Origin: Noviherbaspirillum cavernae
GTDB lineage: Bacteria; Pseudomonadota; Gammaproteobacteria; Burkholderiales; Burkholderiaceae_D
DNA length: 64,000 nucleotides
NCBI RefSeq assembly: GCF_003590875.1
Contig: NZ_QYUN01000002.1
Location: 3,782,001-3,846,000 of the forward strand
Direction of reading: 5' to 3'
Shown: piece after piece, positions 3,312 through 31,323 of the stretch
Layout: each line of letters starts with the position of its first letter
How positions within the stretch are numbered: position 1 is the stretch's first letter
The notes under the pieces: generated by a model
The model's input: only the letters and a program-made list of their open reading frames with translations
Told to the model about the DNA's origin: nothing
Database searches by the model: none
Program-made: the position numbers and the translations under genes

Positions 3312-3341
3312 ATTATAAGGGTTTTCCACAGATTGGGTCAA
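3312..3341 (-). promoter_or_regulatory. Sigma-70-type promoter of the atp operon
   Basis: Read on the minus strand, TTGACC (3341-3336) and TATAAT (3317-3312) are separated by 18 bp, a near-consensus sigma-70 promoter about 92 bp before atpI. The spacer contains TGTGGAAAA, the complement of the DnaA-box variant TTTTCCACA (3322-3330). Confidence 0.7.
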
Positions 3342-3970: not shown

Positions 3971-4858
3971 TCAGGCGCGCAGCTTCGCGATCACCGCATC
4001 GAGCAGGTCGAGGTTGGCGAAGTCGATGATGAGCTGCCCCTTGTTCTTCGCGCCGAGCTTGATGGCGACCTGGGTCGCGAGAAGGTCGGACAGCTCCTCC
4101 TCCAGCCGCGCGATGTCGCGCGATTTTTCCCGGCCCGCACGCGGTTTGCCGGCGGCGGCCTGTTCGGTGGTTGTGCGCGCCACCAGTTTTTCCGCTTCAC
4201 GCACCGACATGCGCCTGGCGACGATCTGGTTGGCGAGCGTGATTTGCGTCGCGCCGTCGGTTGCCAGCAAGGCGCGTGCGTGGCCCATGTCGATGTCGCC
4301 GGCCATCAGCATGGTCTGCACCGGCTTGGCGAGATTGAGCAACCGCAGCAGGTTGGAGACCGCGCTGCGCGAACGGCCGACCGCGCCGGCGGCTTGTTCG
4401 TGCGTGAAATCGAAATCGCTGATCAGGCGGTGGATGCCTTGCGCCTCTTCCAGCGGATTGAGATCTTCGCGCTGCATGTTTTCGATCAGCGCCATCGCGG
4501 CGGCGGCCTGGTCGTCGACGTCCTTGACCAATACGGGCACTTCGGTGAGGCCGGCGATCTGCGCGGCGCGATAGCGGCGTTCGCCGGCGATGATCTCGTA
4601 CCTGTCGCTGCCGTTGAGCGCGAGCGGACGCACGAGGATCGGCTGCATCAGGCCCTGCGCCTTGATCGAGGCGGCCAGTTCGTTGAGCGCGCCTTCGTCC
4701 ATGCGGGTGCGCGGCTGGTATTTGCCGGCCTGCATCTGCGATACGTGCAATGCAGATGGCGAGCCGGGCACGCTCGGCACCGCTTCGGCGATGTCGGTCG
4801 AGCCGCCGAGCAGCGCATCGAGTCCGCGTCCGAGTCCCTTGGATTTCTTGATAGCCAT
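3971..4858 (-). CDS. parB: Chromosome partitioning protein ParB
   Basis: A 295-residue ParB/Spo0J protein, the CTP-dependent clamp that loads at parS and spreads to organise origin-proximal DNA. It opens MAIKKSKGLGRGLDALLGG, the standard N terminus. The CTP-binding region includes ENMQREDLNPLEEAQG, with GERRYRAAQIAGL just before it. The helix-turn-helix follows (THEQAAGAVGRSRSAVSNLLR), and a C-terminal dimerisation region ends the protein. The start 5 bp after parA's stop is preferred over the long upstream frame, which is a shadow of parA. Two perfect parS targets lie 4-5 kb away at 8982 and 9718. Confidence 0.97.
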   Translation of the reverse strand: MAIKKSKGLGRGLDALLGGSTDIAEAVPSVPGSPSALHVSQMQAGKYQPRTRMDEGALNELAASIKAQGLMQPILVRPLALNGSDRYEIIAGERRYRAAQIAGLTEVPVLVKDVDDQAAAAMALIENMQREDLNPLEEAQGIHRLISDFDFTHEQAAGAVGRSRSAVSNLLRLLNLAKPVQTMLMAGDIDMGHARALLATDGATQITLANQIVARRMSVREAEKLVARTTTEQAAAGKPRAGREKSRDIARLEEELSDLLATQVAIKLGAKNKGQLIIDFANLDLLDAVIAKLRA

Positions 4859-4863
4859 GATGT

Positions 4864-5634
4864 TTACATTGATTGGATTCGTTGAACCATCTCCGCGCCG
4901 AACGCGATGTAGGCTTGCGCGCCCTTGGAAGATGGATCGAAGGTGACGCCCGGCATACCGTAGGACGGCGCTTCGGCCAGCCGCACGTTGCGCGGGATGA
5001 TGGTCTTGAAAACCTTGTCGCCAAAGTGCTGTTCGAGCTGCGCGGAAACCTGCTGCGAGAGCGTCATGCGCGGATCGAACATGACGCGCAACAGGCCGAT
5101 GATCTTGAGGTCGGTGTTGAGCTTGGCATGCACCTTCTTGATCGTGTTGACGAGGTCCGACAGGCCTTCGAGCGCATAGTATTCGCACTGCATCGGAATG
5201 ATCACGCCATGCGCGGCGCACAGGCCGTTGAGCGTCAGCATCGAGAGCGCGGGCGGACAATCGATCAGCACGAAGTCGTATTCCGCATCGACTGCATGGA
5301 GCGCGTCCTTCAGACGCTTTTCGCGGTTCTCGAGTTCCACCATTTCGACTTCCGCACCGGCCAGTTCGCGATTCGCCGGCAGCATGTCGAAGCGGCCGGA
5401 CTCAGAGCGGCGGCGCGCGGCGCTCACATCGGACATGCCAAGCAGCACTTCGTAGACCGACGCTTGCAGCTCGGCCTTGTTGATGCCGGCGCCCATTGTT
5501 GCATTGCCCTGCGGATCCAGATCGACCAGCAGTACGCGCTGATCGAGTTGCGCCAGTCCGGCGGCAAGATTGACGGCAGTGGTTGTTTTGCCGACGCCGC
5601 CTTTCTGGTTGGCGACGCAGAAGATTTTGGCCAT
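4864..5634 (-). CDS. parA: Chromosome partitioning ATPase ParA (Soj)
   Basis: A 256-residue ParA/MinD-family ATPase with no N-terminal DNA-binding extension, so it is the short chromosomal (Soj) type. The deviant Walker A is KGGVGKTTTAVNLA at residues ~11-24, and LLVDLDPQGNAT is the A' motif. DFVLIDCPPALSML is Walker B. It works with ParB to move origins apart. It is followed by parB after 5 bp and preceded by lysE, in the operon mnmG-rsmG-lysE-parA-parB. Confidence 0.97.
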   Translation of the reverse strand: MAKIFCVANQKGGVGKTTTAVNLAAGLAQLDQRVLLVDLDPQGNATMGAGINKAELQASVYEVLLGMSDVSAARRRSESGRFDMLPANRELAGAEVEMVELENREKRLKDALHAVDAEYDFVLIDCPPALSMLTLNGLCAAHGVIIPMQCEYYALEGLSDLVNTIKKVHAKLNTDLKIIGLLRVMFDPRMTLSQQVSAQLEQHFGDKVFKTIIPRNVRLAEAPSYGMPGVTFDPSSKGAQAYIAFGAEMVQRIQSM

Positions 5635-5642
5635 GAATTTTT

Positions 5643-6275
5643 CTAGTTGGTGGTGAGTTTGATGCCGAAGCCGATCAGGAACACGCCCGCCGCCTTCGAT
5701 GCGAAGGAAGCGATGCGGCGATTGCGCGCGAGGCGCTTGGCAGCGCCGTTGCCGACCAATACCAGCAGACTGCCGTAGAACAGCGTGCATGTCGCAATGA
5801 CCGCGCCCATCGAGAGGAAGGTTGCGACCCCGCGATGCATGGCGGGGTCGATGAAGAGCGGGAAGAAGGCCATGTAAAACACGATGGCTTTCGGATTGAT
5901 CATCGTGACCAGCAGACCGCGCCGGAAATCGGCGGCGCTCGAGAAGGGCACGACGGCGCCGCCCTCTTCCGCCTTTGCAGTCAGCAGCCTGAAGCCGAGC
6001 CAGGCGAGATAGGCTGCGCCGAGATACTGCATTCCCTTGAACAACAGCGGGTTGGCCTGCAGCAAGGCCGCAACACCTATCGCCGCGAGGAACATCAGTA
6101 CCGCATCGCCGACCATCAGACCGGCCAGCGATGCGAAGCCGCCGCGCAAGCCGCGCTGGCCGGCGCAAGTCAGCACGCAAAAGGTGCCGGGGCCGGGCAG
6201 CATGAGGAACACCATGGTGGCGGCGACCAGTTGCCAGATATCGGTGATGCCGAGTGTGTGAAACAAGGTCGTCAT
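5643..6275 (-). CDS. LysE/RhtB-family amino-acid exporter
   Basis: A 210-residue inner-membrane protein with about six hydrophobic segments. The family hallmark appears near the N terminus as MLPGPGTFCVLTCAGQRGLR, and the second half includes NPKAIVFYMAFFPLF, the NPK motif of LysE/RhtB exporters. The substrate cannot be read from sequence. It is inserted between rsmG (3-bp gap) and parA (8-bp gap), so it is probably co-transcribed with them. Confidence 0.9.
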   Translation of the reverse strand: MTTLFHTLGITDIWQLVAATMVFLMLPGPGTFCVLTCAGQRGLRGGFASLAGLMVGDAVLMFLAAIGVAALLQANPLLFKGMQYLGAAYLAWLGFRLLTAKAEEGGAVVPFSSAADFRRGLLVTMINPKAIVFYMAFFPLFIDPAMHRGVATFLSMGAVIATCTLFYGSLLVLVGNGAAKRLARNRRIASFASKAAGVFLIGFGIKLTTN

Positions 6276-6278
6276 GTG

Positions 6279-6929
6279 TCACTGCTCCTGCTTGTCGATG
6301 AAGATCAGATGCCGTTCCGCATTCAGCCCCGGCACGGTCAGCGGACGGACCTCGCTCGCGCGCCAGCCAGCCGGCAGCCGCGCGATTTCGTCGTGCGGCG
6401 CAACGCCCTTCATCGCGATGAAGCGGCCACCCTCCTGCAACAAGTGGCCGGACCAGTTCACGAAATCGGCCAGCTCGGCGAAGGCGCGCGAGGTGATGAC
6501 GTCGAATTTCTGCGCGACCTGCAATTGTTCCACACGCGCGGTGTGCACGGTGACATTCGCAAGGCCCAGTTCGGCCTTGGCCTGGGTCAGAAAGGCGGTC
6601 TTCTTGTGCACGGTGTCGATCAGCGACACCCGCATGTCGGGACGCGCGATCGCCAGCACCATGCCGGGCAGACCGCCGCCGGCACCGACGTCGAGCACGT
6701 TGCGGGCAGCGGCGAAGGCCGGCACCACGGCCAGCGAATCCAGCAGATGCTGGGTCACCATCTGCGCCGGATCGCGCACCGCGGTCAGGTTGTAGACCGC
6801 ATTCCATTTCGCCAGCAGCGCAAGGTAATCCATCAGCTGCGCCAGCTGCGCGTCGCTCAAGTCCAGCTGCAGCACGCGCGCGCCATCGGCGAGCGCAGGC
6901 AGCAAGGCGGCACGGTCAAATGCTTTCAT
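6279..6929 (-). CDS. rsmG: 16S rRNA (guanine-527-N7) methyltransferase RsmG
   Basis: A 216-residue SAM-dependent methyltransferase (GidB) that modifies G527 of 16S rRNA. The SAM site is [20 protein letters not shown] around residue 75, preceded by [20 protein letters not shown], which is diagnostic for RsmG. I chose the ATG at 6929 because it gives the usual N terminus and leaves a 13-bp gap to mnmG, with GAGGA upstream. The longer frame would overlap mnmG by 26 bp. Confidence 0.95.
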
Positions 6930-6942
6930 CGGCGGGCGATCC

Positions 6943-8868
6943 TCAGGCAGCCGCAGGAGCAGCGGCAAATTCCTTGAATCCGCCTTTTTTCAGATGCACC
7001 AGCAGCAGCGAAATCGCCGCCGGCGTGACGCCGGAGATGCGTGATGCCTGGCCGAGCGTTTCGGGGCGATGTTTGTTCAGCTTCTGGCGCACCTCGACCG
7101 ACAGGCCGCGCACTTCCATGTAATCGAGATTGGTCGGCAGCTTGAGGCTCTCGTAGTGATCGTGCCGCTCGACCTCCTTCGCCTGGCGGTCGATGTAGCC
7201 GGCGTACTTCACCTGAATTTCGACCTGCTCCCTGACCGCGCCGTCCTGCACGCCCGGGCCGCCCAGCTCCTGGCCGTCGACGCCCTTGAGCGTCATCAGG
7301 CTGTCGTAGCTCACGTTCGGGCGGCGCAGCAGATCGGTGAGTGCGTACTCTCGCTCAATCCCTTTGCCCAGAACGCGCTCCGCCTCTGCCTCGGATACCA
7401 GACGCGGATTGACCCAAGTCGACTTGAGGCGCTCCAGCTCGCGCGCGACGGCTTCGCGTTTTTTCTCGAACACTTCCCATTGCGCGTCGCCCACGCAGCC
7501 GAGTTCGCGCCCGATTTCCGTCAGGCGCAGATCGGCATTGTCTTCACGCAGGCTGAGGCGGTATTCTGCGCGGCTGGTGAACATGCGGTACGGTTCCTGC
7601 ACGCCCTTGGTGATCAGGTCGTCGACCAGCACGCCGAGATAGGCTTCATCGCGGCGTGGCGTCCACGCTTCACGACCCTGTGTCAGCAATGCGGCATTCA
7701 AGCCGGCCAGCATGCCTTGCGCAGCAGCTTCCTCGTAACCGGTGGTGCCGTTGATCTGGCCGGCGAAGAACAGACCCTGGATGGCCCTCGTCTCGAGCGA
7801 TGCCTTCAGGCCGCGCGGATCGAAGTAGTCGTACTCGATCGCGTAGCCGGGCCGCAGGATGTGCGCGTTCTCGAGGCCGCGCATGGAATGCACCAGTTCC
7901 AGCTGCACGTCGAAAGGCAGGCTGGTCGAGATGCCGTTCGGATAGAACTCGTTGGTGGTCAGGCCTTCCGGCTCGAGGAAGATCTGGTGCGCCGACTTGT
8001 CGGCGAAGCGATGAATCTTGTCCTCGATCGACGGGCAGTAACGCGGCCCGACGCCCTCGATCACGCCGGTATACATCGGGCTGCGGTCGAGGCCGTTGCG
8101 GATGATATCGTGCGTGCGCTCGTTGGTATGCGTGATCCAGCACGGCAGTTGGCGCGGATGCAGCGCGACGGAACCCATGACCGAGAAGACCGGAACCGGG
8201 TCGAGATCGCCCGGCTGCTCCTCCATGACCGAGAAGTCGATGCTGCGACCGTCGATACGCGGCGGCGTGCCGGTCTTCAGCCTGCCCTGCGGCAACTTCA
8301 ACTCCTTCAAGCGTGCGGACAACGAGATCGCAGGCGGATCACCGGCACGGCCGGCGGAGTAGTTACTCAAGCCGACATGAATCTTCCCATCGAGAAATGT
8401 TCCTGCCGTCAATACCACCGCCCTGCTCCGGAATCGGATGCCGACTTGCGTGACAGCACCAACGACGCGATCACCTTCGACCATCAGATCATCCACCGCC
8501 TGCTGGAACAACCACAGATTGGGCTGATTCTCAAGACGATCACGGATCGCTTGCTTGTAGAGAATACGATCGGCCTGAGCGCGCGTGGCGCGGACCGCCG
8601 GACCCTTGGATGAATTCAGGATACGGAACTGGATGCCGGCCTCATCGGTGGCGATTGCCATCGCACCGCCCATGGCATCGACTTCCTTGACCAGATGACC
8701 TTTGCCGATGCCGCCAATCGACGGATTGCACGACATCTGCCCGAGGGTCTCGATATTATGGGTGAGCAAGAGCGTCTTCTGCCCCATGCGGGCGGAAGCG
8801 AGCGCGGCTTCGGTGCCGGCATGACCACCACCGACGATGATGACATCGAATTCAACAGGAAAAAGCAT
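6943..8868 (-). CDS. mnmG: tRNA uridine-5-carboxymethylaminomethyl modification protein MnmG
   Basis: A 641-residue FAD protein (GidA) that, with MnmE, modifies the wobble uridine of several tRNAs. The Rossmann motif [20 protein letters not shown] is at residues ~7-26, [20 protein letters not shown] follows, and [16 protein letters not shown] is present further on. The C-terminal domain ends [20 protein letters not shown], typical for binding MnmE. The start MLFPVEF is used because the preceding 13 codons have no family match. It heads the mnmG-rsmG-lysE-parA-parB operon. Confidence 0.97.
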
Positions 8869-8927
8869 ATTTCGCCTCGAAGAGACGTGAAAATTGGAGA
8901 GCGGCACAACGACGCGCCGGAGGCGAA

Positions 8928-9717: not shown

Positions 9718-9733
9718 TGTTTCACGTGAAACA
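9718..9733. promoter_or_regulatory. parS: parS site 2
   Basis: A second perfect TGTTTCACGTGAAACA, 736 bp from site 1 and 16 bp upstream of the chosen start of the gene at 9000-9701. Confidence 0.95.
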
Positions 9734-19742: not shown

Positions 19743-20618
19743 ATGGATTTCAATCAATTGCGCGCCTTCGTCACCGTCGCGCGCGAAGGCAATCTGACTC
19801 GCGCCGCCGAGCGCCTGCACCTGACGCAACCGGCGGTCAGCCTGCAGATCAAGTCGCTGCAAAACGAGTTGAATCTGCAGTTGTTCTCGCGCACCGCCGG
19901 CGGCATGGCCCTGAGCGACGACGGTGCCAAGCTGCTGCCCTTCGCCGAGCGCGTGATGGAAAGCCTGGGCGAATTCCGGCAAGGCGCGCAGGCACTGCAC
20001 TCGACCCTGTCCGGCACGCTGGCGATCGGCACCATCCTCGACCCGGAATTCATCCGCCTCGGCGCATTCCTGAAGCGTCTGGTCGAAACCTACCCGCAGC
20101 TCTCCACCCAATTGCAGCAAGGCATGTCCGGCTGGGTGCTGCAGCAAGTCAGGAGCGGCCAGTTCGACGTCGGCTACTACCTCGGCAAGCCCGGCAAGGA
20201 TTTCCATTACCAGACGCTCACCTCCTTCACCTACAACGTGGTCGCGCCGCACGGCTGGAAGACGCGCGTCGCCGGCAAGGACTGGGCCGCGCTGGCGAAA
20301 CTGCCATGGATCTGGACGCCGCCGGAATCCGCGCACAACCGCCTGCTGACCAGGACCTTCGCCCAATGCAAGGTGACGCCCAACAAGGTCGCGCTGGTCG
20401 ATCAGGAACCCTCCATGCTCGATCTCGTGAAATCCGGCGTCGGCCTGTCGCTGGTGCGGGAATCGATCGCCCTGCGCGAAGCCCATGCGCACGGCCTCGT
20501 CATCGCTGACGCGGTCAGCCTGCCGATGGAGCTGTCCTTCATCACGCTGGCAAAACGCAAAAACGAACCGACGATTGCCGCCGTGTTTTCACTTTTACAA
20601 GCCTTGTGGCACAGCTGA
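19743..20618 (+). CDS. LysR-family transcriptional regulator
   Basis: A 291-residue LysR regulator. The N-terminal helix-turn-helix is MDFNQLRAFVTVAREGNLTR and AAERLHLTQPAVSLQIKSL, followed by the effector domain (TLSGTLAIGTILDPEFIRLG). It is divergent from mmsA, with an AAGGGAAG Shine-Dalgarno before the ATG. Control of the adjacent catabolic and transport genes is inferred from arrangement only. The origin-like region starts 11 bp after its stop. Confidence 0.92.
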   Translation: MDFNQLRAFVTVAREGNLTRAAERLHLTQPAVSLQIKSLQNELNLQLFSRTAGGMALSDDGAKLLPFAERVMESLGEFRQGAQALHSTLSGTLAIGTILDPEFIRLGAFLKRLVETYPQLSTQLQQGMSGWVLQQVRSGQFDVGYYLGKPGKDFHYQTLTSFTYNVVAPHGWKTRVAGKDWAALAKLPWIWTPPESAHNRLLTRTFAQCKVTPNKVALVDQEPSMLDLVKSGVGLSLVRESIALREAHAHGLVIADAVSLPMELSFITLAKRKNEPTIAAVFSLLQALWHS

Positions 20619-20628
20619 CGGCGCCGGA

Positions 20629-20852
20629 TGTGGACAAGTCTTTGCATATCCTCTGGATCGCCTGGGGAAAAGGCAGAACAAACGGCCAGACGATTTTTTT
20701 GTCCAGAAACCGTACCCTGCCCATACAGCCATTATTCAGGCCTTATCCCGCAGCCAAGTCCTTGATTACTTTCCCGTTTACCGGCTTTTCCACAGAAAAG
20801 GGCGAACGTTAACTATTACTACTATTTTTATATATTGAATACAGATTTAAAA
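20629..20852 (+). repeat. Origin-like module, copy A
   Basis: From TGTGGACAA to the AT tract after TTTTCCACA. The outer boxes are 157 bp apart start to start. Landmarks shared with copy B are a T run followed by GTCCAGAAAC (20701), CATACAG (20722), TTGATT (20762), GTTTACCG and TTAAC plus ATTACTACTAT (20809-20825). Both DnaA boxes differ from consensus by one base. Confidence 0.65.
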
Positions 20853-20978
20853 CCCCGAAGAGCTTTCCTGCCGCAGATGCCAGCCCTGACGTAACCGTTT
20901 CGGATCACTATTTCAAAAATTCCGTTTCCCTTTTTGCAATGCCTTCTTGTTTCTGAAAAGCAGTACGTCTTTCAACAA

Positions 20979-21202
20979 TGTGGATAACTCTATGGATATC
21001 GGGAGGATGAGTCGGGGATAAGCGACGCGATATTCCCATCTTTTTTTTTGTCCAGAAACTGTACTTCTTTCATACAGGCATTATTCAAGCGCTTATGAAA
21101 TCTGCAAGGCCTTGATTCCTATTGCGTTTACCGACTTATCCACAGAAGAAGGGCTGTGTTAACCATTACTACTATTTATATATATAAACATCTAATTAAA
21201 AA
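20979..21202 (+). repeat. Origin-like module, copy B
   Basis: Same order and 157-bp box spacing as copy A, displaced by 350 bp (349 in the middle because of a one-base indel). Both DnaA boxes are perfect (TGTGGATAA at 20979, TTATCCACA at 21136). The AT tract 21159-21202 contains a longer TATATATATA run. This copy looks the more functional of the two. Confidence 0.68.
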
Positions 21203-21271
21203 CCTCAAACCTCTTGTTCTTGCCACCAGCCGCCGATATTCCTGCTCAGAAATAAAAAATTGATAACGAAA

Positions 21272-22039
21272 ATGATCCCTTCCCCCATTCGACTCGGCAT
21301 CATCAGTGCCATGCATCAGGAACAGGCTGGCCTGATTGACAATCTTCTTGATGCGCACACCATCCGCCGCGGCATGCGCGACTACGTGACAGGCAGTCTG
21401 TGGGATATCGATTGCGTATGCGTGCTGTCGCGCCTTGGCAAGGTGGCTGCTGCCGCTACGGCAGCCACCCTGATCGAGCGTTTCGGCGTGACGCATATCG
21501 TGTTCACCGGCGTGGCCGGCGCGGGAGACCGTGACGTGCGGGTAGGCGATATCGTGATCGCCCGGCAACTGGTGCAGCATGACCTCGACGCCTCGCCCCT
21601 TTTCCCGCGCCATGAAGTGCCGCTGACGGGACAATCACTGTTCGTCCCGGACCAGCGCCTGACCGATCAGCTGCTGCAGGCGGCCGGTGATTTTCTCGAT
21701 CAGGATTTCCCGGCCGTGATCGACATCGCCGACCGCGACGCGTTCCGCTTGCACCGGCCGCGCATCCACCAGGGCCTGATTGCCAGCGGTGACGAATTCA
21801 TCAGTAAGCGAACGCGGTTGGAGGAATTGAAAACGGCATTGCCGGAACTGCAGGCCGTCGAAATGGAAGGTGCGGCGGTCGCCCAGGTCTGCTTCGAATT
21901 CGGCGTGCCCTATGCGGTCATCAGAACGATCTCCGATGCCGCCAATGAAGACGCGCCGGTGGACTTCCTGAAATTCATCGAACGCGTCGCATCGCGCTAC
22001 GCGTTCGGCATCGTCAGGCGGCTGTGCGCCAACGGATGA
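21272..22039 (+). CDS. 5'-methylthioadenosine/S-adenosylhomocysteine nucleosidase-like protein
   Basis: A 255-residue member of the nucleoside phosphorylase/hydrolase superfamily, closest in motifs to MTA/SAH nucleosidase. It has LGIISAMHQEQAGL with the acid/base Glu17, FTGVAGAGDRDVRVGDIVIA, the substrate Glu199 in VEMEGAAVAQV and Asp222 in IRTISDAANEDAP. It would cleave MTA or SAH to adenine and a ribose derivative in the methyl cycle. The ATG at 21272 is used; a TTG four codons earlier is the only longer option. No strong ribosome-binding site is visible. It directly follows origin-like copy B. Confidence 0.88.
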   Translation: MIPSPIRLGIISAMHQEQAGLIDNLLDAHTIRRGMRDYVTGSLWDIDCVCVLSRLGKVAAAATAATLIERFGVTHIVFTGVAGAGDRDVRVGDIVIARQLVQHDLDASPLFPRHEVPLTGQSLFVPDQRLTDQLLQAAGDFLDQDFPAVIDIADRDAFRLHRPRIHQGLIASGDEFISKRTRLEELKTALPELQAVEMEGAAVAQVCFEFGVPYAVIRTISDAANEDAPVDFLKFIERVASRYAFGIVRRLCANG

Positions 22040-23518: not shown

Positions 23519-25624
23519 TCACACAGTTTCAGATACGGCACTCTTCGTTTCCCTTGCGCCGTTTGCCGCCAGCCGTCGGCCGCCAATTCCTTCGACAGGA
23601 CGCAAACCTGCATATACCGCGCCGGAGGGCTTGTACCTGTCCGATCCCATGTAAATCTTGCGGTAACGCAGAAATCCGCCGCCGAGAAGCTCTCCCTCGC
23701 GTCCGCGCGACTCGAAATCGATTCCATCCATGGCGTTCGATTGACCCCGGTAGGGCAGATACTTCGCGACGCGCCTTTCTTCCGCATTCGATAGTGGCGG
23801 CGGTTCCTTCCCCACGGGGTTTTTCTTCCATTCGATCCGCGCTTCCTTGCGCGTCGCCAGTTCCTCCATCTGGAACAGCACCTCGGAGGCATCCTTGCCA
23901 AAGGGTTTGAACCACGCGCGCGAATCGTGCACGTATTGGTCGAACAGATCGGTCACCGATGCCGGCGGCGCGGGGGCATCCCAAAATGCGGCCACGCTTT
24001 CCCATTCCGACCATGAATATGGCTGCGATCCGCTATCCTGGTAGGGATTGCGATCGCGCCATGCATCGAATCGCGCGACTTCATCGACCAGTTCGCGGTC
24101 GGCGGCGGTGATGTCCTCGCGATCGGGCCCGTCGCTGTCCTGAACACTTTTGAGCGAGGCCATCCTGCCCAGCATCTTCTTGCGCCACTGGATGTAAAGC
24201 CTGTGCTGCTGCGCCATCAGCACGTGCAAAGGCATCGATACCGGTGCATCCTTTTCCGTCACGGGAGTGCACGATGCGATATAGGCATTGAACATTTGAA
24301 TCAATCCCGGATCGACGCGGAACGAACGCCTGACCGATTCCGGCGCTTCTTCCAGCTTCAGCTGCACGCCGGCCAGGCGCGCGGCGCGATACATCGTCGC
24401 CAGTGTGATTCGCGACAGCATGTCCGCGCCTTCCTCGTCCTTGCCGCGCCCCTGCTCTCTCGGCTTGTAGCCGCCGCCGACGTCGGAATGCACACCAGGG
24501 AAGACGATCTCCGTGCAGTTGGGCTGCAGCGTCCCCTCGTACATCACCGAGTCCAGCGGAAACGAGCGCCGCACCTCGTGCGCCGACACCAGATGCAGGC
24601 ACTGCGCGGGAGCGGGGTCGCAGATCTTGAGGGAATATTCGCTGTCGGCCCAGCCGTAGTGACCGTGCGAACCAGGCACAGGCGCCGAGCTGGCCAGTCC
24701 GACCGACGCCACGGTGTCGAACAGTCCCATGAAATCGAAGGTGACAGGAATCGTCCCCAGCGACAGGCCGGCCCGGCCGCTGATCTCCGCATCCAGCTTG
24801 CACAGCCACGTCAACCAGTTCGCGAACGCCCGTGCCTCTGCCGCGCCGCGCGAGAAGCCGAATACCGACAGGAAGATGTTGATGACCTTGCCGTGGTCCT
24901 TGCTCTTTCCGGCCTCGTCGACCGGCACATACATCTGCAGGGCCATGTGCAGATCCTTCAGGACCGCCGTGAAGAGAGCTGTCATCCGCTGGCAGGGGGT
25001 GGCCTGTTCATTCCATTCGTTGAAGGAAGGCGCGAAGCGGTGTGTCTCGCCGAAATCGGGCAGGGTCAGCTTGTTGAAAGAGGCCTTGAATTTGTCGGTG
25101 TCGATCAGCTTTTGCTTGCGGTAGTACCGATGCACGTTGTTGATCATCTCGACCAGGGCCCAAATGATGCGGTTCTCGCCCATGTAGGCAAAGGCCAGGC
25201 CCTGGGTGCGCATCGAGCCTTCCCCCGTGTCGCCGACTTCATCGAATGGGGTGCCGACACCGGGAACGTAGGTGCGGTAGAAGTTGTAGTACTTGCCGGG
25301 ATTACTCCATGCGGTCTTTTTGGAAAGGCCGTCCGTACCATTATCAGGAAATGCGTTATGCAACCGCGCGACATTGCTGTGCACATGGTCCTTTTCATCA
25401 CGTTCCAGATTGTTGTTGGTGCCGTCGAAGAAGACTCCGAAAAAAAGGTTGACGTCGCAGCTGGGCGGGAAGACGGTGTGGTCGGTGCATTCGCGAGCAC
25501 GGATAAATTCTTTAATTCGGTCTCGCTCTTCTTCGGAGAAAAGAGAAATAGGGGTTAACGCACTGGTTGCTGCGGACGGATCCGTAGCTAGAGAAGGGAA
25601 TATGCTTGCAAGTAAAGCGCTCAT
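23519..25624 (-). CDS. Type VI secretion lipase effector, DUF2235 (Tle1-like)
   Basis: A 701-residue alpha/beta hydrolase of the DUF2235/Tle1 group, phospholipases delivered on VgrG spikes into the periplasm of rival cells. The family start FFGVFFDGTNNN is at residues ~61-72. The nucleophile elbow is GFSRGA with Ser258, Asp303 lies in FMGLFDTVASVG, and FPGVHSDVGGGY (His378) supplies the histidine. There is no signal peptide, as expected. It overlaps the upstream DUF3304 gene by ATGA, so the lipoprotein and effector are coupled. The C terminus ends close to a vgrG relict and may have been reshaped there. Confidence 0.9.
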   Translation of the reverse strand: MSALLASIFPSLATDPSAATSALTPISLFSEEERDRIKEFIRARECTDHTVFPPSCDVNLFFGVFFDGTNNNLERDEKDHVHSNVARLHNAFPDNGTDGLSKKTAWSNPGKYYNFYRTYVPGVGTPFDEVGDTGEGSMRTQGLAFAYMGENRIIWALVEMINNVHRYYRKQKLIDTDKFKASFNKLTLPDFGETHRFAPSFNEWNEQATPCQRMTALFTAVLKDLHMALQMYVPVDEAGKSKDHGKVINIFLSVFGFSRGAAEARAFANWLTWLCKLDAEISGRAGLSLGTIPVTFDFMGLFDTVASVGLASSAPVPGSHGHYGWADSEYSLKICDPAPAQCLHLVSAHEVRRSFPLDSVMYEGTLQPNCTEIVFPGVHSDVGGGYKPREQGRGKDEEGADMLSRITLATMYRAARLAGVQLKLEEAPESVRRSFRVDPGLIQMFNAYIASCTPVTEKDAPVSMPLHVLMAQQHRLYIQWRKKMLGRMASLKSVQDSDGPDREDITAADRELVDEVARFDAWRDRNPYQDSGSQPYSWSEWESVAAFWDAPAPPASVTDLFDQYVHDSRAWFKPFGKDASEVLFQMEELATRKEARIEWKKNPVGKEPPPLSNAEERRVAKYLPYRGQSNAMDGIDFESRGREGELLGGGFLRYRKIYMGSDRYKPSGAVYAGLRPVEGIGGRRLAANGARETKSAVSETV

Positions 25625-26280
25625 GGTTTGTTTTTCAGCAGATAGTCGAGTTCGGCTTTTGAGTATTCAAGATTTTTCCGTAATCTCTCTTTTGCTTCTT
25701 TGGTATAGGACTCAAAGGTGAGGCTATTCATTCTTTGTGTACCTTCGGTGATATATGCCCTATGTTCATCTACTTTCCGTCTCCACACCTTCAACCGATA
25801 TTCCCTCGAAGGCTCTGGCCAATTTTTCATTTTTCCCGGCCAGTCCGGATGGCCGGGTTCCGTGTCCGAGATAACCGCTTCCGCTTCGCCGCCTTCATGC
25901 ACCATGATCCAGATGTCGTCAGGTTTGCTGTAACGCGGCACATTGACCAGTATCCGATGGGTTTCCTTCTCCGGGTACACCCGGAACTTGACAATGACTT
26001 GCAAGTCGGGACGCCATTTGGATGGAATGCCGAAGCAGCACATGGTCGTTCTCCCACCGCCATATGGATTCAATGCCGCACCGCCACCCGCGTTGTTCGG
26101 ATTTTGAGGGTCTTCCACCGCGAGGTAACTGAGTTCTTGCCCCGAATAGTTAAGTGGATGCACGCCCACGCCGGAGCGCACCTCCTTCTGCGGCCCGATG
26201 ACCGAGCATGCCGCCAGCATGGTGCTCAGACTGATGACGAGCAGGACTTGGCGTGCCAAACGAATGCTTGTTTTCTTCAT
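25621..26280 (-). CDS. DUF3304 lipoprotein, probable lipase immunity protein (copy a)
   Basis: A 219-residue lipoprotein with signal peptide and lipobox (LSTMLAACS). The mature part contains VGVHPLNYSGQELSYLAVED, a glycine-rich stretch NAGGGAALNPYGGG with CC following, and PDDIWIMVHEGGEAEAVI, all DUF3304 features. Such proteins commonly neighbour Tle effectors and probably shield the periplasm from the toxin. The start MKKTSIRL is preferred to an ATG five codons earlier. The stop overlaps the lipase start, giving immunity-before-toxin order. The last ~60 residues differ sharply from copy b. Confidence 0.82.
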   Translation of the reverse strand: MKKTSIRLARQVLLVISLSTMLAACSVIGPQKEVRSGVGVHPLNYSGQELSYLAVEDPQNPNNAGGGAALNPYGGGRTTMCCFGIPSKWRPDLQVIVKFRVYPEKETHRILVNVPRYSKPDDIWIMVHEGGEAEAVISDTEPGHPDWPGKMKNWPEPSREYRLKVWRRKVDEHRAYITEGTQRMNSLTFESYTKEAKERLRKNLEYSKAELDYLLKNKP

Positions 26281-26285
26281 GACTC

Positions 26286-26699
26286 TCAATTGCAAAGGTG
26301 TTTGAAAGGGTTTGGGTTGCGTGTGCGATCACAGGGTTTGCGTTCCAGCTCTGGAACGTAGGTGCGGTAGAAGTTGTAGTACTTGCCTGGATCGCTCCAT
26401 CCGTCTCCGCGTGGCTCATCGTTATTGCCATTGTTGGGAAATGCTCGGAACAGGCGCGCGACATTGCTGTGCACATGCTCCTTTTCATCGCGTTTCAAAT
26501 TGTTGTTGGTGCCGTCGAAGAAGACGCCGAAAAACAGGTTGACGTCGCAGCTGGGCGGGAAGGCGGTGTGGTCGGAGCATTCGCGAGCATGGATAAATTC
26601 ATTAATTGTCGGGATTTCTTTTTTCTCTTCAAAGAACTGTTCTTTATTGGCTGGGTCTATCGCCTTTGAAGGATATGAAGCTGCGAGGTATGCCGTCAT
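26286..26699 (-). pseudogene. Truncated DUF2235 lipase N terminus fused to a DUF4123 3' relict
   Basis: The first ~115 residues follow the intact lipase closely (RECSDHTAFPPSCDVNLFFG, then VFFDGTNNNLKRDEKEHVHS and PGKYYNFYRTYVP). After that the frame switches to ELERKP and then to sequence matching the end of the DUF4123 gene and the leader of DUF3304. It lacks the catalytic serine, aspartate and histidine. It remains open for 137 codons and is still coupled to DUF3304 copy b by ATGA, so a peptide may be made. Confidence 0.85.
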
Positions 26700-27352
26700 G
26701 GTTTGACCCCTTCTAATCGTTTGATCTCGTTCTTGGAATATCCAATCGCTCGCTTTAGTCGTTCAAGCTCCCTTGGCGATAGGTCACTAACATCTCCTTG
26801 CAGTGCCTTCTCCATCGCGGTCAGTTCCGCCTTTTCTCGCCGTAATTTCTCTCCCCACACCTTCAACCGATATTCCCTCGAAGGCACCGGCCAATCTTTC
26901 ATTCTTCCCGGCCAGTCCGGATGGCCGGGTTCCGTACTGGTGATCACCGCCTCCGCTTCGCCGCCTTCATGCACCATGATCCAGATGTCGTCGGGCTTGC
27001 GGTATTGCGGCACATTGACCAGTACCCGGCGGGTCTCTTTTTCCGGATACACCCGGAACTCGACAATGACTTGCAAGTCGGGATGCCATTTGTCCGGAAT
27101 GCTGAAGCAGCATATGGTGGATCGCCCGCCACCGTATGGGTTCAGGGCGTCACCACCACCGCCGTTGTTCGGGTTTTTGGGATCTTCCACTGCCACATAA
27201 CTAAGCTCCTTCCCTGAGTAGTTAATCGAGTGCACCCCCACGCCGGAGCGCGCCTCCTTCTGCGGCCCGATGGCCGAACATGCCGCCAGCACGGTGCTCA
27301 GACTGATGACGCGCAAGACTTGGGTTGCCAAACGAATGCTTGTTTTCTTCAT
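26696..27352 (-). CDS. DUF3304 lipoprotein, probable immunity protein (copy b)
   Basis: A 218-residue lipoprotein with lipobox LSTVLAACS and the same DUF3304 core as copy a (roughly 80% identical by eye over the first ~160 residues). The C-terminal segment is unlike copy a: lysine/glutamate-rich and helical (ELTAMEKALQGDVSDLSPRE). The divergent tail could determine which lipase it neutralises. It overlaps the truncated lipase by ATGA, so its own toxin partner has been lost while the immunity gene survives. Confidence 0.82.
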   Translation of the reverse strand: MKKTSIRLATQVLRVISLSTVLAACSAIGPQKEARSGVGVHSINYSGKELSYVAVEDPKNPNNGGGGDALNPYGGGRSTICCFSIPDKWHPDLQVIVEFRVYPEKETRRVLVNVPQYRKPDDIWIMVHEGGEAEAVITSTEPGHPDWPGRMKDWPVPSREYRLKVWGEKLRREKAELTAMEKALQGDVSDLSPRELERLKRAIGYSKNEIKRLEGVKP

Positions 27353-27399
27353 GGTTCTCAATTGCAAAGTGTTCGAAAGGGTTTGGGTTGCGTGTGCGA

Positions 27400-28269
27400 T
27401 CACGAGGTTTGCATCCATTTCATGCGCATTGTTTCAACGGTCATTGCCACGCTCGGCATGGCCAGCCATTCTGCAACACGCGGATTGCGTTCCAGCTCTG
27501 GATGAGTGAAACCGAGTTCGCACAAGCGCATGCGTTCCGAAGCCGCTTCAATCCTTGCGTGATCCGCACAGGCCAGCCAGCGAGACACGATTTCGTGCGC
27601 GCGTGCCGGCGTGTGGCAATCGACCAGATTCGCCGAATGCGCGCGCAACTGATACAGCACACCATCTGCTTCCGCCGCATCGATCAATTGCGTGCATTGC
27701 CCTTCGCTCAGAATGATTTCGTCGGCAGGTGGCAATCCTGTCTCCGGCAACGACAAGGTTTCCCATTCCGCCGTGCGCGAGACATATTGCCAGCAGTTGG
27801 CCGGACCGCATAACTGCGCTTTTTGTTGCGGAGTCACCGCCGCAAAAAGCACGGGCAGGATGCGCGTGTCGGCAAACGATAATGCGAGGTGATGTCCGCC
27901 TGCATCGACGATGCACCATGGCGTGAGTCTCGTCGCCAGCTGTGTGATTGATTCGGATGTCACGATGAGACTCAATGCCGGCACACCGCTGGTCTTCTTG
28001 AGCAGCGTGTTCCATGTGTCATGTTCATTCGCCCTGTACTCGACCAGAAGCGGCGAGATCGACAGCGTTTCTTCATCTGCGGAAGCCGTGTTGGCATAGA
28101 GCGCAACGAATGGCAATCGTGTTGATCGCTTCAGGAATGAATGGCATGAATCAGCCAGGACGCCCTCGATCAAGGCATGGATGTGTGCATCGGGGAATTG
28201 CCGCTCAATCTCCGCAAGGCGCATGGTCAATGTGCCGTACCAATCGGAGGGATATCGATTAATTGCCAT
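27400..28269 (-). CDS. DUF4123 effector adaptor/chaperone
   Basis: A 289-residue protein matching the DUF4123 (Tap/TEC) adaptor family, which loads effectors onto a cognate VgrG tip. The N-terminal part (HIHALIEGVLADSCHSFLKR) followed by P-L-L-V-E-Y is characteristic. The C-terminal half has the usual helical lobe (HTPARAHEIVSRWLACADHA). It lies 21 bp after vgrG and before the immunity/lipase genes. Part of its 3' end is duplicated at 26281-26352. Confidence 0.83.
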   Translation of the reverse strand: MAINRYPSDWYGTLTMRLAEIERQFPDAHIHALIEGVLADSCHSFLKRSTRLPFVALYANTASADEETLSISPLLVEYRANEHDTWNTLLKKTSGVPALSLIVTSESITQLATRLTPWCIVDAGGHHLALSFADTRILPVLFAAVTPQQKAQLCGPANCWQYVSRTAEWETLSLPETGLPPADEIILSEGQCTQLIDAAEADGVLYQLRAHSANLVDCHTPARAHEIVSRWLACADHARIEAASERMRLCELGFTHPELERNPRVAEWLAMPSVAMTVETMRMKWMQTS

Positions 28270-28290
28270 GGATATGAAGGTAAAAGCGGA

Positions 28291-31191
28291 TCACTCTTCG
28301 AGCACTGAAAACGGCGAACCGGTTGCCGCTGCACTGCGCTTGCAACGCTTGCAGATCGACCTGGGGAATTTCGGCAAAACGTAGTTCTGCTTCACCGGCC
28401 CGACGAATTTCTTGCTCCCTGCCCTGATCGAGATCGTCCCCGGGCAGGCGAACGTGATGTTGCCGTCCGCAATGGTCATGCTGGCGCCGCCCTCGGTGGC
28501 GAGCGTGATGCTCTTTGCCGCCGCCAGGTCGATGTGGCTGTTGGCCGACAGAAGCTGCAGCAGGTCCTTCGCGGCAAGCGTCATCGCATCGCTCTGCGCC
28601 TGCAGGTCGATGTCGCCCTGGCCCGCAATCAGCGCGATGCCGGCGTCGTTCTCGCCCGGCCCGACCGCGCCGGCCAAGAGGCCGAGCGCCTGGCCGCTGT
28701 GGATGCTCAGCGCATCGCCGGTGGCGAGATGGAGGTCGCGGCCGGCGGCCAGATGCGCGACTTCGCCGGCGGCGACGTGGAGGCCGTCGGCGGCCGCCAC
28801 GCCGATGCCGGCCTGCGCGGCGACCACCACCAGCGGCGCGTGCATGTGCGCAATCCTCTCGCCGTGTCCATCAACGCCGCCGTCCTGCGCATCGACCAGG
28901 CCCGAGATCGCCTTGACCATCGCGGCGATCGGCGCGGCCTCGTCGTCGAGGCGGCTCTGGCGCTTGCCGCCGTTCAGCGCGCCGCCCTTGACGAGAATGA
29001 ACTGCACGGTCTGATGCGTGGCGGCGGCGCGGTTGAAGGTGTCGGCGAAGCCCTGCGCCTGTTTCAGCAGCGCAATGCCGGGGCTGTTCTCGCCGGCCGG
29101 CTCCGGGCCGCCGCCGGGCGCGCTGCCGTGATAGGTCGAGATGAGCACCCCCTTGCCGGCGCGGAGCGCGCCGCGGGCATCGGTGCGCAGTTCCCAGCCG
29201 GTGCCGCGGAAGCTGCCGCGGTGGTTGTCGGCCTGGTGGATCAGGTGGCCCAGATTCAATTGTGTGGCGGCGCTGTCGCTGGCGAGCATGGTACGCAGGC
29301 GGCCGCTGGTGTCGTCGAACACGAGCTGGTTGCTCTGGCGTGCATGGCCATCGGCACCCAGCGCGACCGACTTGAAGCCGGACAGGTAGCCGGCATGGCG
29401 GTGGGCAGCGGCCGCGCCGTGCCAGGCGGGCGAGGCGCCGCCGGCCAGATTCTCTTGCGCGGCCGGGGCGTGGTCGCTTGCCTGGGCATAGGCGTCGGCG
29501 TCGTGCCGGCCGCGGCCGTTGTACAGCACGCCGGTGACGACCGGGCGGTCGATGTCGTTGTCGAGGAAGCGGACCACGACTTCCTGGCCGATGCGGGGGA
29601 TGAATTGCGCGCCGTAGCCGGGGCCGGCATACAGCTGCGCCACCCGCACCCAGCAGCCGTTCTGCTCCGTGATCTGCCACGGGTAGCGGATGCGAACGCG
29701 GCCGAGGTGGTCGGTGTGCACGGTGCCGGCGGCGGCCGTGCCGCCGTCCGCGCCGACCACGATCGCGCTCTGGCTGCCCAGGGCGGTGGGTCTGGGATTC
29801 TGCAGCAGGCCGGTGCCGTCCGACAAGGCCGGCCGCCACGGGATGTCGGCGCGGATCGCGGTGAAGCGGTTGGCGTAGCCACTGCCGTCGGCTTCGCGCA
29901 GCAGTACCTCCCACGCGGCATGGTCGAGCCAGCGCTCGGCGTCGTCGAGATCCTGCGTGTGCCGATCCAGACCGGGGTGGAAGTCGTCCGCGGCCGGCGG
30001 CAGGCCGGCATCGTCATCGGCGTGCGGCACGGGAGCCGCGCCCAGTGATTGCCGCACCTCCTGTCGCAGGGCGGCCGGCAGGTTGTTGACGCCGGCATGC
30101 AGCACGCCCAGGAGCGCCAGCCGCTTCGCTTGCGCCGGGGCGTCGCGCTGCTCGAGCGGCGCGCCGATGACCTCGAACGCGGTGCCGGGACGGAAGGTGC
30201 GCACGCCCCCCGCGCCGAACCAGTCCTTGAAGCGGGCGTCGGCGCCGTCACGCGCGATGCGCGCGTAGTGCAGCGCCTCGTCCTGGGTGGCGAAGGCGTA
30301 CACGCCGGCCCAGTCGCCGCTTTCGACGTGCGGCGCGTTCGGGCCGCCGAATTGATGCGCGGTCGGCAGCGACACGGCGGTGACGCGTTTCGCCTTGTAG
30401 TCCCACGAGGCGCGCGTGGTGACGGCCGCCTGCAGCGTGCGCCGCGCATGCAGTGTCTGGATGGTGTCGGCGGTTTCGACGGCGGCGGCGCGGTGGAAGC
30501 GGATGCCGCCATCGCGGGCGGCGCTGGCGTCCTCGGCGAACCGGGCCGAATCGGCGAACAGCACCAGCTGCTGACGCGACACACCCGGCCCGTCCGCGCC
30601 GGTTTCCTCGAAATGGAAGCCGATGCCTTCCTCGGCCAAGAGACGCGTGACGAAGGCGTAGTCGCTCTCGCGGTACTGGCAGCAGTAGCTGCGAGGACGC
30701 ACCCGCGCCAGGAATTCGCGCGCCTCGGCGCTGACGCGCCAGTTGGCGCGCGCGGCGTCGGCGGCGAACACCTGTTCGACGATCTCGAGCACGTCCCGGT
30801 CCTGGAACACGCGCGAGCGGCGGCGCTGGGTGGCGAACCACAGCCACGGCACGAGCGTCAGCCGGTAGCGGGCGAGGTTACCGTGCGCACCGTCGGCGCC
30901 GAGCTGGAAGGCGGCGCGCACGTAGCCCGAGCGCGTGCCGATGCTGCCGTCGGCCAGCCGCGTGTGCAGAGCGAGCTGCTGCCCGAGCAGCGCCTGCAGC
31001 GGCAGCGTCGCCGTGGTCGACAGGCAGGTGAGGTGGTATTCGGACAGCGCCGACAGCGCTTCCCGGCCGACCCAGCTTTCCACCAGCAGCGGCGCGTGTC
31101 CGGTCGGCATCTCCAGCTCGTACAGGCGGGTGTCGGCGGTGAAGACGGCGCTGGCGCGCGCGAAGTCGAGGCCTTGGGACAGATCGGACAT
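28291..31191 (-). CDS. vgrG: Type VI secretion spike protein VgrG with DUF2345 extension
   Basis: A 966-residue VgrG. The N-terminal gp27-like part opens FTADTRLYELEMPTGHAPLL. The gp5-like OB fold shows HTDHLGRVRIRYPWQ and GYGAQFIPRIGQEVVVRFLD near residues 485-540. The C-terminal ~350 residues are a DUF2345/beta-helix extension ending CKRCKRSAAATGSPFSVLEE. It forms the puncturing tip and carries cargo through the downstream DUF4123 adaptor. No core T6SS genes are in the window, so this is an orphan vgrG island. The start MSDLSQG is chosen over an upstream ATG with a leucine-rich non-family leader. Confidence 0.93.
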   Translation of the reverse strand: MSDLSQGLDFARASAVFTADTRLYELEMPTGHAPLLVESWVGREALSALSEYHLTCLSTTATLPLQALLGQQLALHTRLADGSIGTRSGYVRAAFQLGADGAHGNLARYRLTLVPWLWFATQRRRSRVFQDRDVLEIVEQVFAADAARANWRVSAEAREFLARVRPRSYCCQYRESDYAFVTRLLAEEGIGFHFEETGADGPGVSRQQLVLFADSARFAEDASAARDGGIRFHRAAAVETADTIQTLHARRTLQAAVTTRASWDYKAKRVTAVSLPTAHQFGGPNAPHVESGDWAGVYAFATQDEALHYARIARDGADARFKDWFGAGGVRTFRPGTAFEVIGAPLEQRDAPAQAKRLALLGVLHAGVNNLPAALRQEVRQSLGAAPVPHADDDAGLPPAADDFHPGLDRHTQDLDDAERWLDHAAWEVLLREADGSGYANRFTAIRADIPWRPALSDGTGLLQNPRPTALGSQSAIVVGADGGTAAAGTVHTDHLGRVRIRYPWQITEQNGCWVRVAQLYAGPGYGAQFIPRIGQEVVVRFLDNDIDRPVVTGVLYNGRGRHDADAYAQASDHAPAAQENLAGGASPAWHGAAAAHRHAGYLSGFKSVALGADGHARQSNQLVFDDTSGRLRTMLASDSAATQLNLGHLIHQADNHRGSFRGTGWELRTDARGALRAGKGVLISTYHGSAPGGGPEPAGENSPGIALLKQAQGFADTFNRAAATHQTVQFILVKGGALNGGKRQSRLDDEAAPIAAMVKAISGLVDAQDGGVDGHGERIAHMHAPLVVVAAQAGIGVAAADGLHVAAGEVAHLAAGRDLHLATGDALSIHSGQALGLLAGAVGPGENDAGIALIAGQGDIDLQAQSDAMTLAAKDLLQLLSANSHIDLAAAKSITLATEGGASMTIADGNITFACPGTISIRAGSKKFVGPVKQNYVLPKFPRSICKRCKRSAAATGSPFSVLEE

Positions 31192-31323
31192 GGGAGCGGC
31201 TCCGTATTTGGATTGTTGCTGTTCTAACAACAGCAGCCGCATTGCATCACATTGTTATTGTTTTTACAATAATTTTTGCCGCAGAGAAGCGGCAATCCGC
31301 CTCGGGATGCCGCCGCAAAGGCG

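Follow-up and report, generated by a model that had tools for sequence, protein, structure and literature searches.

Where does replication of this chromosome begin, and why does one of its intergenic regions carry the signals for initiation twice? The region lies in a window of 64,000 nucleotides (the whole stretch of DNA that was analysed), C2:3782001-3846000 of a 4.66 Mb assembly in four contigs, of which contig C2 has 3,922,994 bases. Models of initiation, with DnaA titration, firing once per cycle and a single bubble that loads two helicases, take it that a chromosome has one oriC. Two copies of one module are found here, at 20626-20837 and 20977-21189, between a LysR-family regulator gene and mtnN. 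A first-pass annotation had proposed either an active chromosomal origin away from dnaA or a duplicated origin with one decaying copy. The locus is probably where the chromosome starts to replicate, an origin that consists of two complete oriC units arranged in tandem.

Each module presents the same elements in the same order: an outer inverted DnaA box, an IHF site, an inner DnaA box, GTTAAC, the trio-like TTACTACTA and TATATA. The IHF sites were matched to YAANNNNTTGATW, which we take to be the consensus. Module scores come from profile R1, built from the alignment A1, which holds 87 of 101 modules under 80% identity (14 were dropped by hand for length). Units A and B are among these 87, so that their scores are partly given by construction.

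20626-20837, plus strand: proposed oriC unit A, complete module; profile R1, 131.1 bits, model positions 4-216 of 219
20629-20637, minus strand: unit A outer DnaA box (R4-like), TTGTCCACA, one mismatch; reads TGTGGACAA in the window
20755-20767, plus strand: unit A IHF-consensus site, CAAGTCCTTGATT, perfect; starts 31 bp before the inner box
20786-20794, plus strand: unit A inner DnaA box (R1-like), TTTTCCACA, one mismatch
20808-20835, plus strand: unit A GTTAAC, DnaA-trio-like CTATTACTACTATTT and TATATA tract, the putative unwinding element; conserved in alignment A1
20977-21189, plus strand: proposed oriC unit B, complete module; profile R1, 140.2 bits
20979-20987, minus strand: unit B outer DnaA box (R4-like), perfect
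21105-21117, plus strand: unit B IHF-consensus site, CAAGGCCTTGATT, perfect; starts 31 bp before the inner box
21136-21144, plus strand: unit B inner DnaA box (R1-like), perfect
21158-21186, plus strand: unit B GTTAAC, trio-like TTACTACTATTT and TATATATATA tract, the putative unwinding element; alignment A1

In both units the boxes are 157 bp apart from start to start (148 bp between boxes), and 20 nt separate the inner box from ATTACTACTAT. The box-to-trio spacer is 18 nt in unit A and 21 nt in unit B. Boxes and trio stand in a register of exactly 350 bp from A to B, with one block between them at 349 bp. The first-pass description of one module in two copies, with this spacing, gap and register, is borne out, and the box scan agrees with it that copy B has two perfect boxes and copy A two boxes with one mismatch each. 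The perfect IHF consensus in both copies is an addition to that description. Direct repeats between the copies cover 105 nt at 75% identity and 48 nt at 81%; overall, the units are 67% identical. No gene lies between them, and each has its own trio and AT tract. The module boxes are the only DnaA boxes with at most one mismatch within 17 kb, the next being at 3322 and 43233, and over 1.73 Mb sampled elsewhere in this genome the profile scores at most 14.1 bits. Among the places listed for 392 family genomes, unit B ranks 1st and unit A 31st. A known RNA element was considered as the identity of the region and dropped, Rfam giving 0 matches in the window; a search of the window for tRNA or tmRNA also found none.

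The genes and sites around the modules are as follows.

3971-5260, minus strand: open frame holding parB (Pfam ParB_N, HTH_ParB, ParB_C)
4864-6807, minus strand: long open frame; a ParA-type ATPase makes up its C-terminal part (residues ~392-642), with scores below family cut-offs
6943-8907, minus strand: mnmG (gidA), TIGR00136, 909 bits
8982-8997, no strand assigned: parS site, perfect 16-mer
9718-9733, no strand assigned: parS site, perfect 16-mer
19743-20618, plus strand: LysR-family regulator gene, left neighbour of the modules; below the cut-offs of named subfamilies
21272-22039, plus strand: mtnN, 5'-methylthioadenosine/S-adenosylhomocysteine nucleosidase, right neighbour; NF004079, 279 bits against a cut-off of 169; ATG at 21272
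23519-25624, minus strand: Tle1-like phospholipase effector, type VI secretion cluster
25621-26295 and 26696-27418, minus strand: two Tli1a-like genes, below family cut-off
27400-28269, minus strand: Tla1-like chaperone, type VI secretion cluster
28291-31242, minus strand: VgrG, type VI secretion cluster

The parS pair, parAB and mnmG all lie 11-17 kb from the modules. The two parS sites, 10.9-11.6 kb to the left, are the perfect sites that the first-pass annotation had placed at 11-12 kb; the 16-mer used at both is what we take to be the parS consensus. A relative of the LysR gene is present in 34 of 46 mapped loci, and at least one of the window's neighbour genes adjoins the units in 44 of the 46 (both counted by eye). 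To the right of the modules, the type VI secretion cluster occupies 23519-31242 on the minus strand.

The position of the origin was approached through GC skew. Contig C2 was sampled in 20-kb pieces every 60 kb, more densely around the window, and a change-point model was fitted. The skew follows a single cycle that peaks near 1.84 Mb, with a fitted origin at 3.81 Mb and a terminus at 1.82-1.86 Mb; the modules lie at 3.803 Mb. In a 281-kb stretch made by joining the end of C2 to its start, the cumulative minimum falls at 3,806,968, which is 3.8 kb to the right of unit B. Skew is almost flat between 3.54 Mb and the end of the contig, and the 95% bootstrap interval of the fitted origin is accordingly broad, 3.55-3.83 Mb. 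The dnaA gene is at C2:17307-18668, about 137 kb from the modules if C2 is circular, a distance similar to the roughly 150 kb seen in a one-contig relative (G115). Perfect DnaA boxes flank the gene, one 0.2 kb upstream and one just behind it (L035 17095 and 18696), but no profile match was found there, and dnaA was rejected as the site of the origin. An origin away from dnaA, one of the two first-pass proposals, is supported by the skew fit with its broad bootstrap, by the absence of the module at dnaA and by conservation in the family. Together with the anatomy of E. coli type, these make it probable that the module pair is the oriC of this chromosome.

Other skew observations can be added. 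In a genome of a second genus (G001), skew over 20 stretches of 5 kb was noisy and its best single breakpoint lay away from the modules; local skew there changes sign across the modules, from -0.060 on the left to +0.107 on the right (4.9 kb each). Contig C3, the large second contig (727,115 bases), gave no coherent skew cycle in 13 samples; it may be a chromid, a plasmid or a piece of the chromosome. A search for a dif site with a gamma-type pattern returned 0 matches at up to 3 mismatches. A weak partial profile match of 14 bits, probably a chance one, lies 28 kb to the left of the modules at C2 ~3774422-3774533 (L037 12422-12533).

One of the closest paradigms is the continuous origin of E. 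coli. E. coli oriC sits apart from dnaA, its two strong boxes are named R1 and R4, and its unwinding element consists of 13-mers. For DnaA-trios, the rule is 3'-[G/A]A[T/A]-5'. The E. coli order of unwinding tract, R1, IHF, weaker sites and R4, with opposed boxes, is also the order of the window units; mnmG, which adjoins oriC in E. coli, lies 11.7 kb away here. In E. coli, an IHF match, CAGGTTGTTGATC, with 2 mismatches to the consensus, begins at exactly 31 bp from the R1 box on its upstream side, the same offset as in both window units; read on the opposite strand, it is the E. coli IHF site given in PMC4285127. Profile R1, whose training modules all come from this family, recovers E. coli oriC (23 bits, E 1.1e-7 over 2.7 kb, with filters off). 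Opposed strong boxes, a fixed place for the IHF consensus and an AT-rich tract beside the inner box are all present in the window sequence; each module, as judged from these elements, has the full core of an E. coli-type oriC, together with a putative unwinding tract of trio type. The differences are that E. coli has one unit where two are found here, that the distance to the outer box is 180 bp there and 157 bp here, and that trio-type repeats take the place of the 13-mer element.

The trio repeats recall instead the basal unwinding system (BUS) of B. subtilis and others, in which a DnaA box stands next to trio repeats that run into an AT-rich tract. The central adenine of the DnaA-trio is described in PMC8287927, whose survey rule allows a spacer of up to 16 nt, or a longer one if a second weak box lies inside. 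The spacers of 18 and 21 nt found here, with their conserved GTTAAC, exceed that limit, and there are two or three such elements per origin. The survey's screen left one candidate per genome for more than 99% of genomes (PMC8287927), so double units would be invisible in it. DoriC, too, displayed only the most probable origin (PMC4403523). The multi-unit loci of this family suggest that origin surveys with one candidate per genome hide such cases.

Origins with more than one part are known. Bipartite origins, as in B. subtilis and Helicobacter pylori, resemble the present locus in having two DnaA-box clusters near one another. Their unwinding element lies in one sub-region, and the spacer gene is usually dnaA (PMC4285127); here, in contrast, a putative unwinding tract is present in each unit, there is no spacer gene and dnaA is far away. 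The bipartite model was rejected on the first of these differences. PMC4403523 lists putative double origins for four chromosomes, among them that of Ralstonia pickettii 12D, of the same order as the source genome, with one candidate near hemE and one near dnaA. Mycobacterium bovis BCG Pasteur has two oriC copies (PMC4403523), which come from a large duplication, ~30 kb for DU1 (PMC2448323). These listed double origins are far apart, around dnaA or derived from large duplications, whereas the units described here are compact and recur across a family. On chromosome 1 of Cupriavidus metallidurans CH34, again of the same order, the skew switch is ~90 kb from dnaA and adjoins 3 perfect DnaA boxes in 213 nt; the available text of PMC2864759 makes no mention of a duplicated unit. 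An oriC apart from dnaA is ordinary, since both E. coli and this chromosome show it. A search of the literature that left aside most subscription papers and all preprints found no earlier report of a multi-unit oriC for this family. Doubled complete oriC units appear to be frequent in the family and undescribed in the literature searched.

How widely is the module conserved? The first search pattern contained only a box and TACTACTA, with the reversed pattern as control. It was present in 121 of 195 family genomes and 28 of 44 genera, against 9 of 195 genomes for the reversed control (controls counted by eye). Outside the family but within the order, pattern and control were found in 6 and 7 of 290 genomes, respectively (by eye). 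The genomes with a box-trio match (121/195) supplied 73 family loci, a non-random sample that excludes the short loci L005-L034 and the named loci L134-L136 and L138. A free scan of the 73, which used boxes and TACTA only and allowed 100-200 bp between boxes, returned 143 modules. In 139 of these, 156-160 bp separate the boxes, and 103 of the 139 have the top-scoring IHF match of the intervening stretch at -31. The same scan found no full module in 1.58 Mb of the source genome away from the origin. Across loci, the 3' part of the module reads GTTAAC or GTTTAC, then trio repeats, then TATATA; alignment A1 also shows conserved box-like blocks between the two strong boxes.

Profile R1 identified 151 modules in the 73 loci. 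Elements were checked in these with the box pair sought at 154-162 bp only, so that the free scan gives the fair count of spacing. An IHF consensus with at most one mismatch occupies -31 in 129 of the 151, compared with 0.055% of 16,359 other offsets. Trio runs of 3 or more are present in 141, and runs of 4 or more in 104, the latter compared with 1.4% of shuffled tails. These counts suggest that this betaproteobacterial family shares the R1-IHF geometry of E. coli. Beyond the family, 213 of 290 genomes in the order show some profile match (222 of 300, minus nine that belong to the family); these matches are weaker, the best reaching 91 bits and the rest of those listed at most 69. The profile is not specific to the family, but the score is. 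Weak matches across the order are as expected of a general oriC type.

The number of units varies. By profile, one unit is present in 8 of the 73 loci, two in 52 and three in 13. Two or three full units are therefore found in 65 loci, and such loci occur in 21 of the 25 genera examined. Two-unit examples are Massilia soli, Herbaspirillum robiniae and Oxalicibacterium flavum, all Oxalobacteraceae, as well as Herbaspirillum sp. LeCh32-8 and an uncultured Oxalicibacterium. Recurrence of the units through the family goes beyond the first-pass annotation, and the alignment across relatives that it had called for shows that the geometry is kept. Its view that a double unwinding element would be unusual holds against the textbook oriC and fails for this family, in which such elements are common. 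Multi-unit loci are arranged as 37 tandem pairs, 13 tandem triples, 10 convergent pairs and 5 divergent pairs; tandem spacing is 0.3-3.6 kb, and convergent and divergent pairs are 0.6-2.8 kb apart. All 15 genomes searched in the source genus (nine loci and six genomes) have at least two full-length units, tandem in 7 (0.34-0.76 kb between unit starts) and divergent in 8 (2.7-2.8 kb). In three mapped divergent loci of this genus (G100, G115, G162), MMSDH and LysR genes lie between the units. Profile searches of 392 family genomes gave a match in 377 and none in 15, with exactly one in 45 (by eye). At least two matches in 332 of the 392 is an upper bound, as partial matches count: in 9 of 18 genomes rechecked the second match was partial (17-25 bits), including 7 of the 8 one-unit genomes. 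The eighth of these, G024, had one match.

In the strongest copy of the 73 loci, both boxes (at most one mismatch) are kept in 72, the IHF site in 61, a trio run of at least 3 in 70 and all elements in 58. The corresponding numbers for the weakest copy of the 65 multi-unit loci are 59, 58, 59 and 49. Weaker copies are thus slightly looser, without being ruined. Pairs within a genome mostly share 50-70% identity (72 of 91), and the nearest relative of a unit (n=151) belongs to another genome of the genus in 101 cases, to the same genome in 30 and to another genus in 20. Because of these identities, and of nearest relatives that lie mainly in other genomes, the units are judged to be mostly old copies, probably with some homogenisation. 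The convergent pairs of g23, the genus of Oxalicibacterium flavum, differ in this respect: four of six are 96-99% identical within the genome (G127, G140, G161 and G183; L179, L184, L181 and L049), the others 86 and 70%. Spacer letters of the near-identical pairs differ between genomes. The pattern suggests gene conversion or repeated duplication of the inverted copies in this genus. In the small genomes of another genus, g7 (G073, G110, G049), a single, much diverged full-length match of 38-51 bits was found in each, which suggests loss of units or fast change in a small-genome lineage.

The proposed mechanism, which we infer for each unit by analogy with E. coli and B. subtilis, would comprise four steps. 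(i) DnaA would occupy the inner (R1-like) and outer (R4-like) boxes and the weaker sites between them. (ii) IHF would bend the DNA at its fixed site beside the inner box. (iii) A DnaA oligomer would start at the inner box, grow across GTTAAC and reach the trio-like repeats. (iv) The oligomer would open the TATATA tract, leading to helicase loading. We think that each unit is an autonomous copy of one device and not half of a single structure, because the spacing and orientation of units vary freely, even inside one genus. Selection would keep at least two units in most of the family, implying that the extra unit is useful; it might provide redundancy, or enlarge the DnaA-binding capacity by which initiation is timed. 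The one-unit loci (8 of 73) indicate that two units are not needed in every lineage. For the Oxalobacteraceae as a whole, an origin of two or three complete units, at least 0.3 kb apart and in any orientation, all of them functional and under selection, is put forward tentatively, at somewhat short of an even chance.

Would both units fire? The most serious competing view is that only one does, probably B, and that the other, derived from a copy of the origin, serves nearby for DnaA titration or timing in the manner of datA or a DnaA-box cluster. This view is compatible with the two-unit origin, in that both copies could be retained with one of them doing most of the work. The single mismatch in each unit A box speaks for it, as do the lineages in which one unit suffices, and at 0.35 kb the firing of one unit would copy the other almost at once. 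Titration, however, needs boxes and has no need of a trio run or TATATA tract, and the weakest copies mostly retain the trio run as well as the IHF site; on balance we consider this view serious but less likely than not. A different coupling is conceivable, in which the two units form a compound orisome: tract A would lie between two DnaA arrays, and the two sides would load two helicases on opposite strands. The tandem form does place DnaA arrays on both sides of tract A, and no arrangement is as common as this one, seen in 50 of 65 multi-unit loci. Yet tandem spacing ranges over more than 3 kb, other pairs converge or diverge at up to 2.8 kb, and tandem and divergent layouts coexist in the source genus, with which a fixed joint structure is hardly compatible, so that this explanation is unlikely.

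A recent tandem duplication with unit A in decay, the other first-pass proposal, could account for the off-by-one boxes of that unit and for the slightly lower retention of all elements in the weakest copies. It was rejected as highly improbable: unit A, at 131 bits, has an uninterrupted trio run and an IHF site without mismatch, other genomes of the genus and family retain two or three full units, the weakest copies keep both boxes in most loci, and 67% identity between A and B does not point to a recent event. Equally improbable is a non-origin role, be it as a LysR or mtnN regulatory region or as a DARS-like DnaA site, with the real origin elsewhere. The two flanking genes do recur beside the region in relatives, but units also lie between other genes (GMC oxidoreductase and MMSDH in G100, G115 and G162), several loci have neither LysR nor mtnN in view, and the skew fit, the parS sites and the similarity to E. 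coli oriC all point to an origin. Two complete oriC units in tandem thus stay the preferred reading of the locus.

If two or three units are usual in the family, its natural single, double and triple origins, in three arrangements, amount to a ready-made experiment on the effect of a second origin. Such variants would then bear on the timing and robustness of initiation and on re-initiation. Should all units be functional and selected, they would be a natural exception to the rule of one oriC per bacterial chromosome. Similar structures may exist beyond the family. Among the matches listed for the order, same-strand pairs of weak matches ~240-330 bp apart occur in f27 (G220, G266, G308, G346, G381, G411, G440, G469) and also in f51 (G362, G394, G452), and doubled origin units may be present in these other families.
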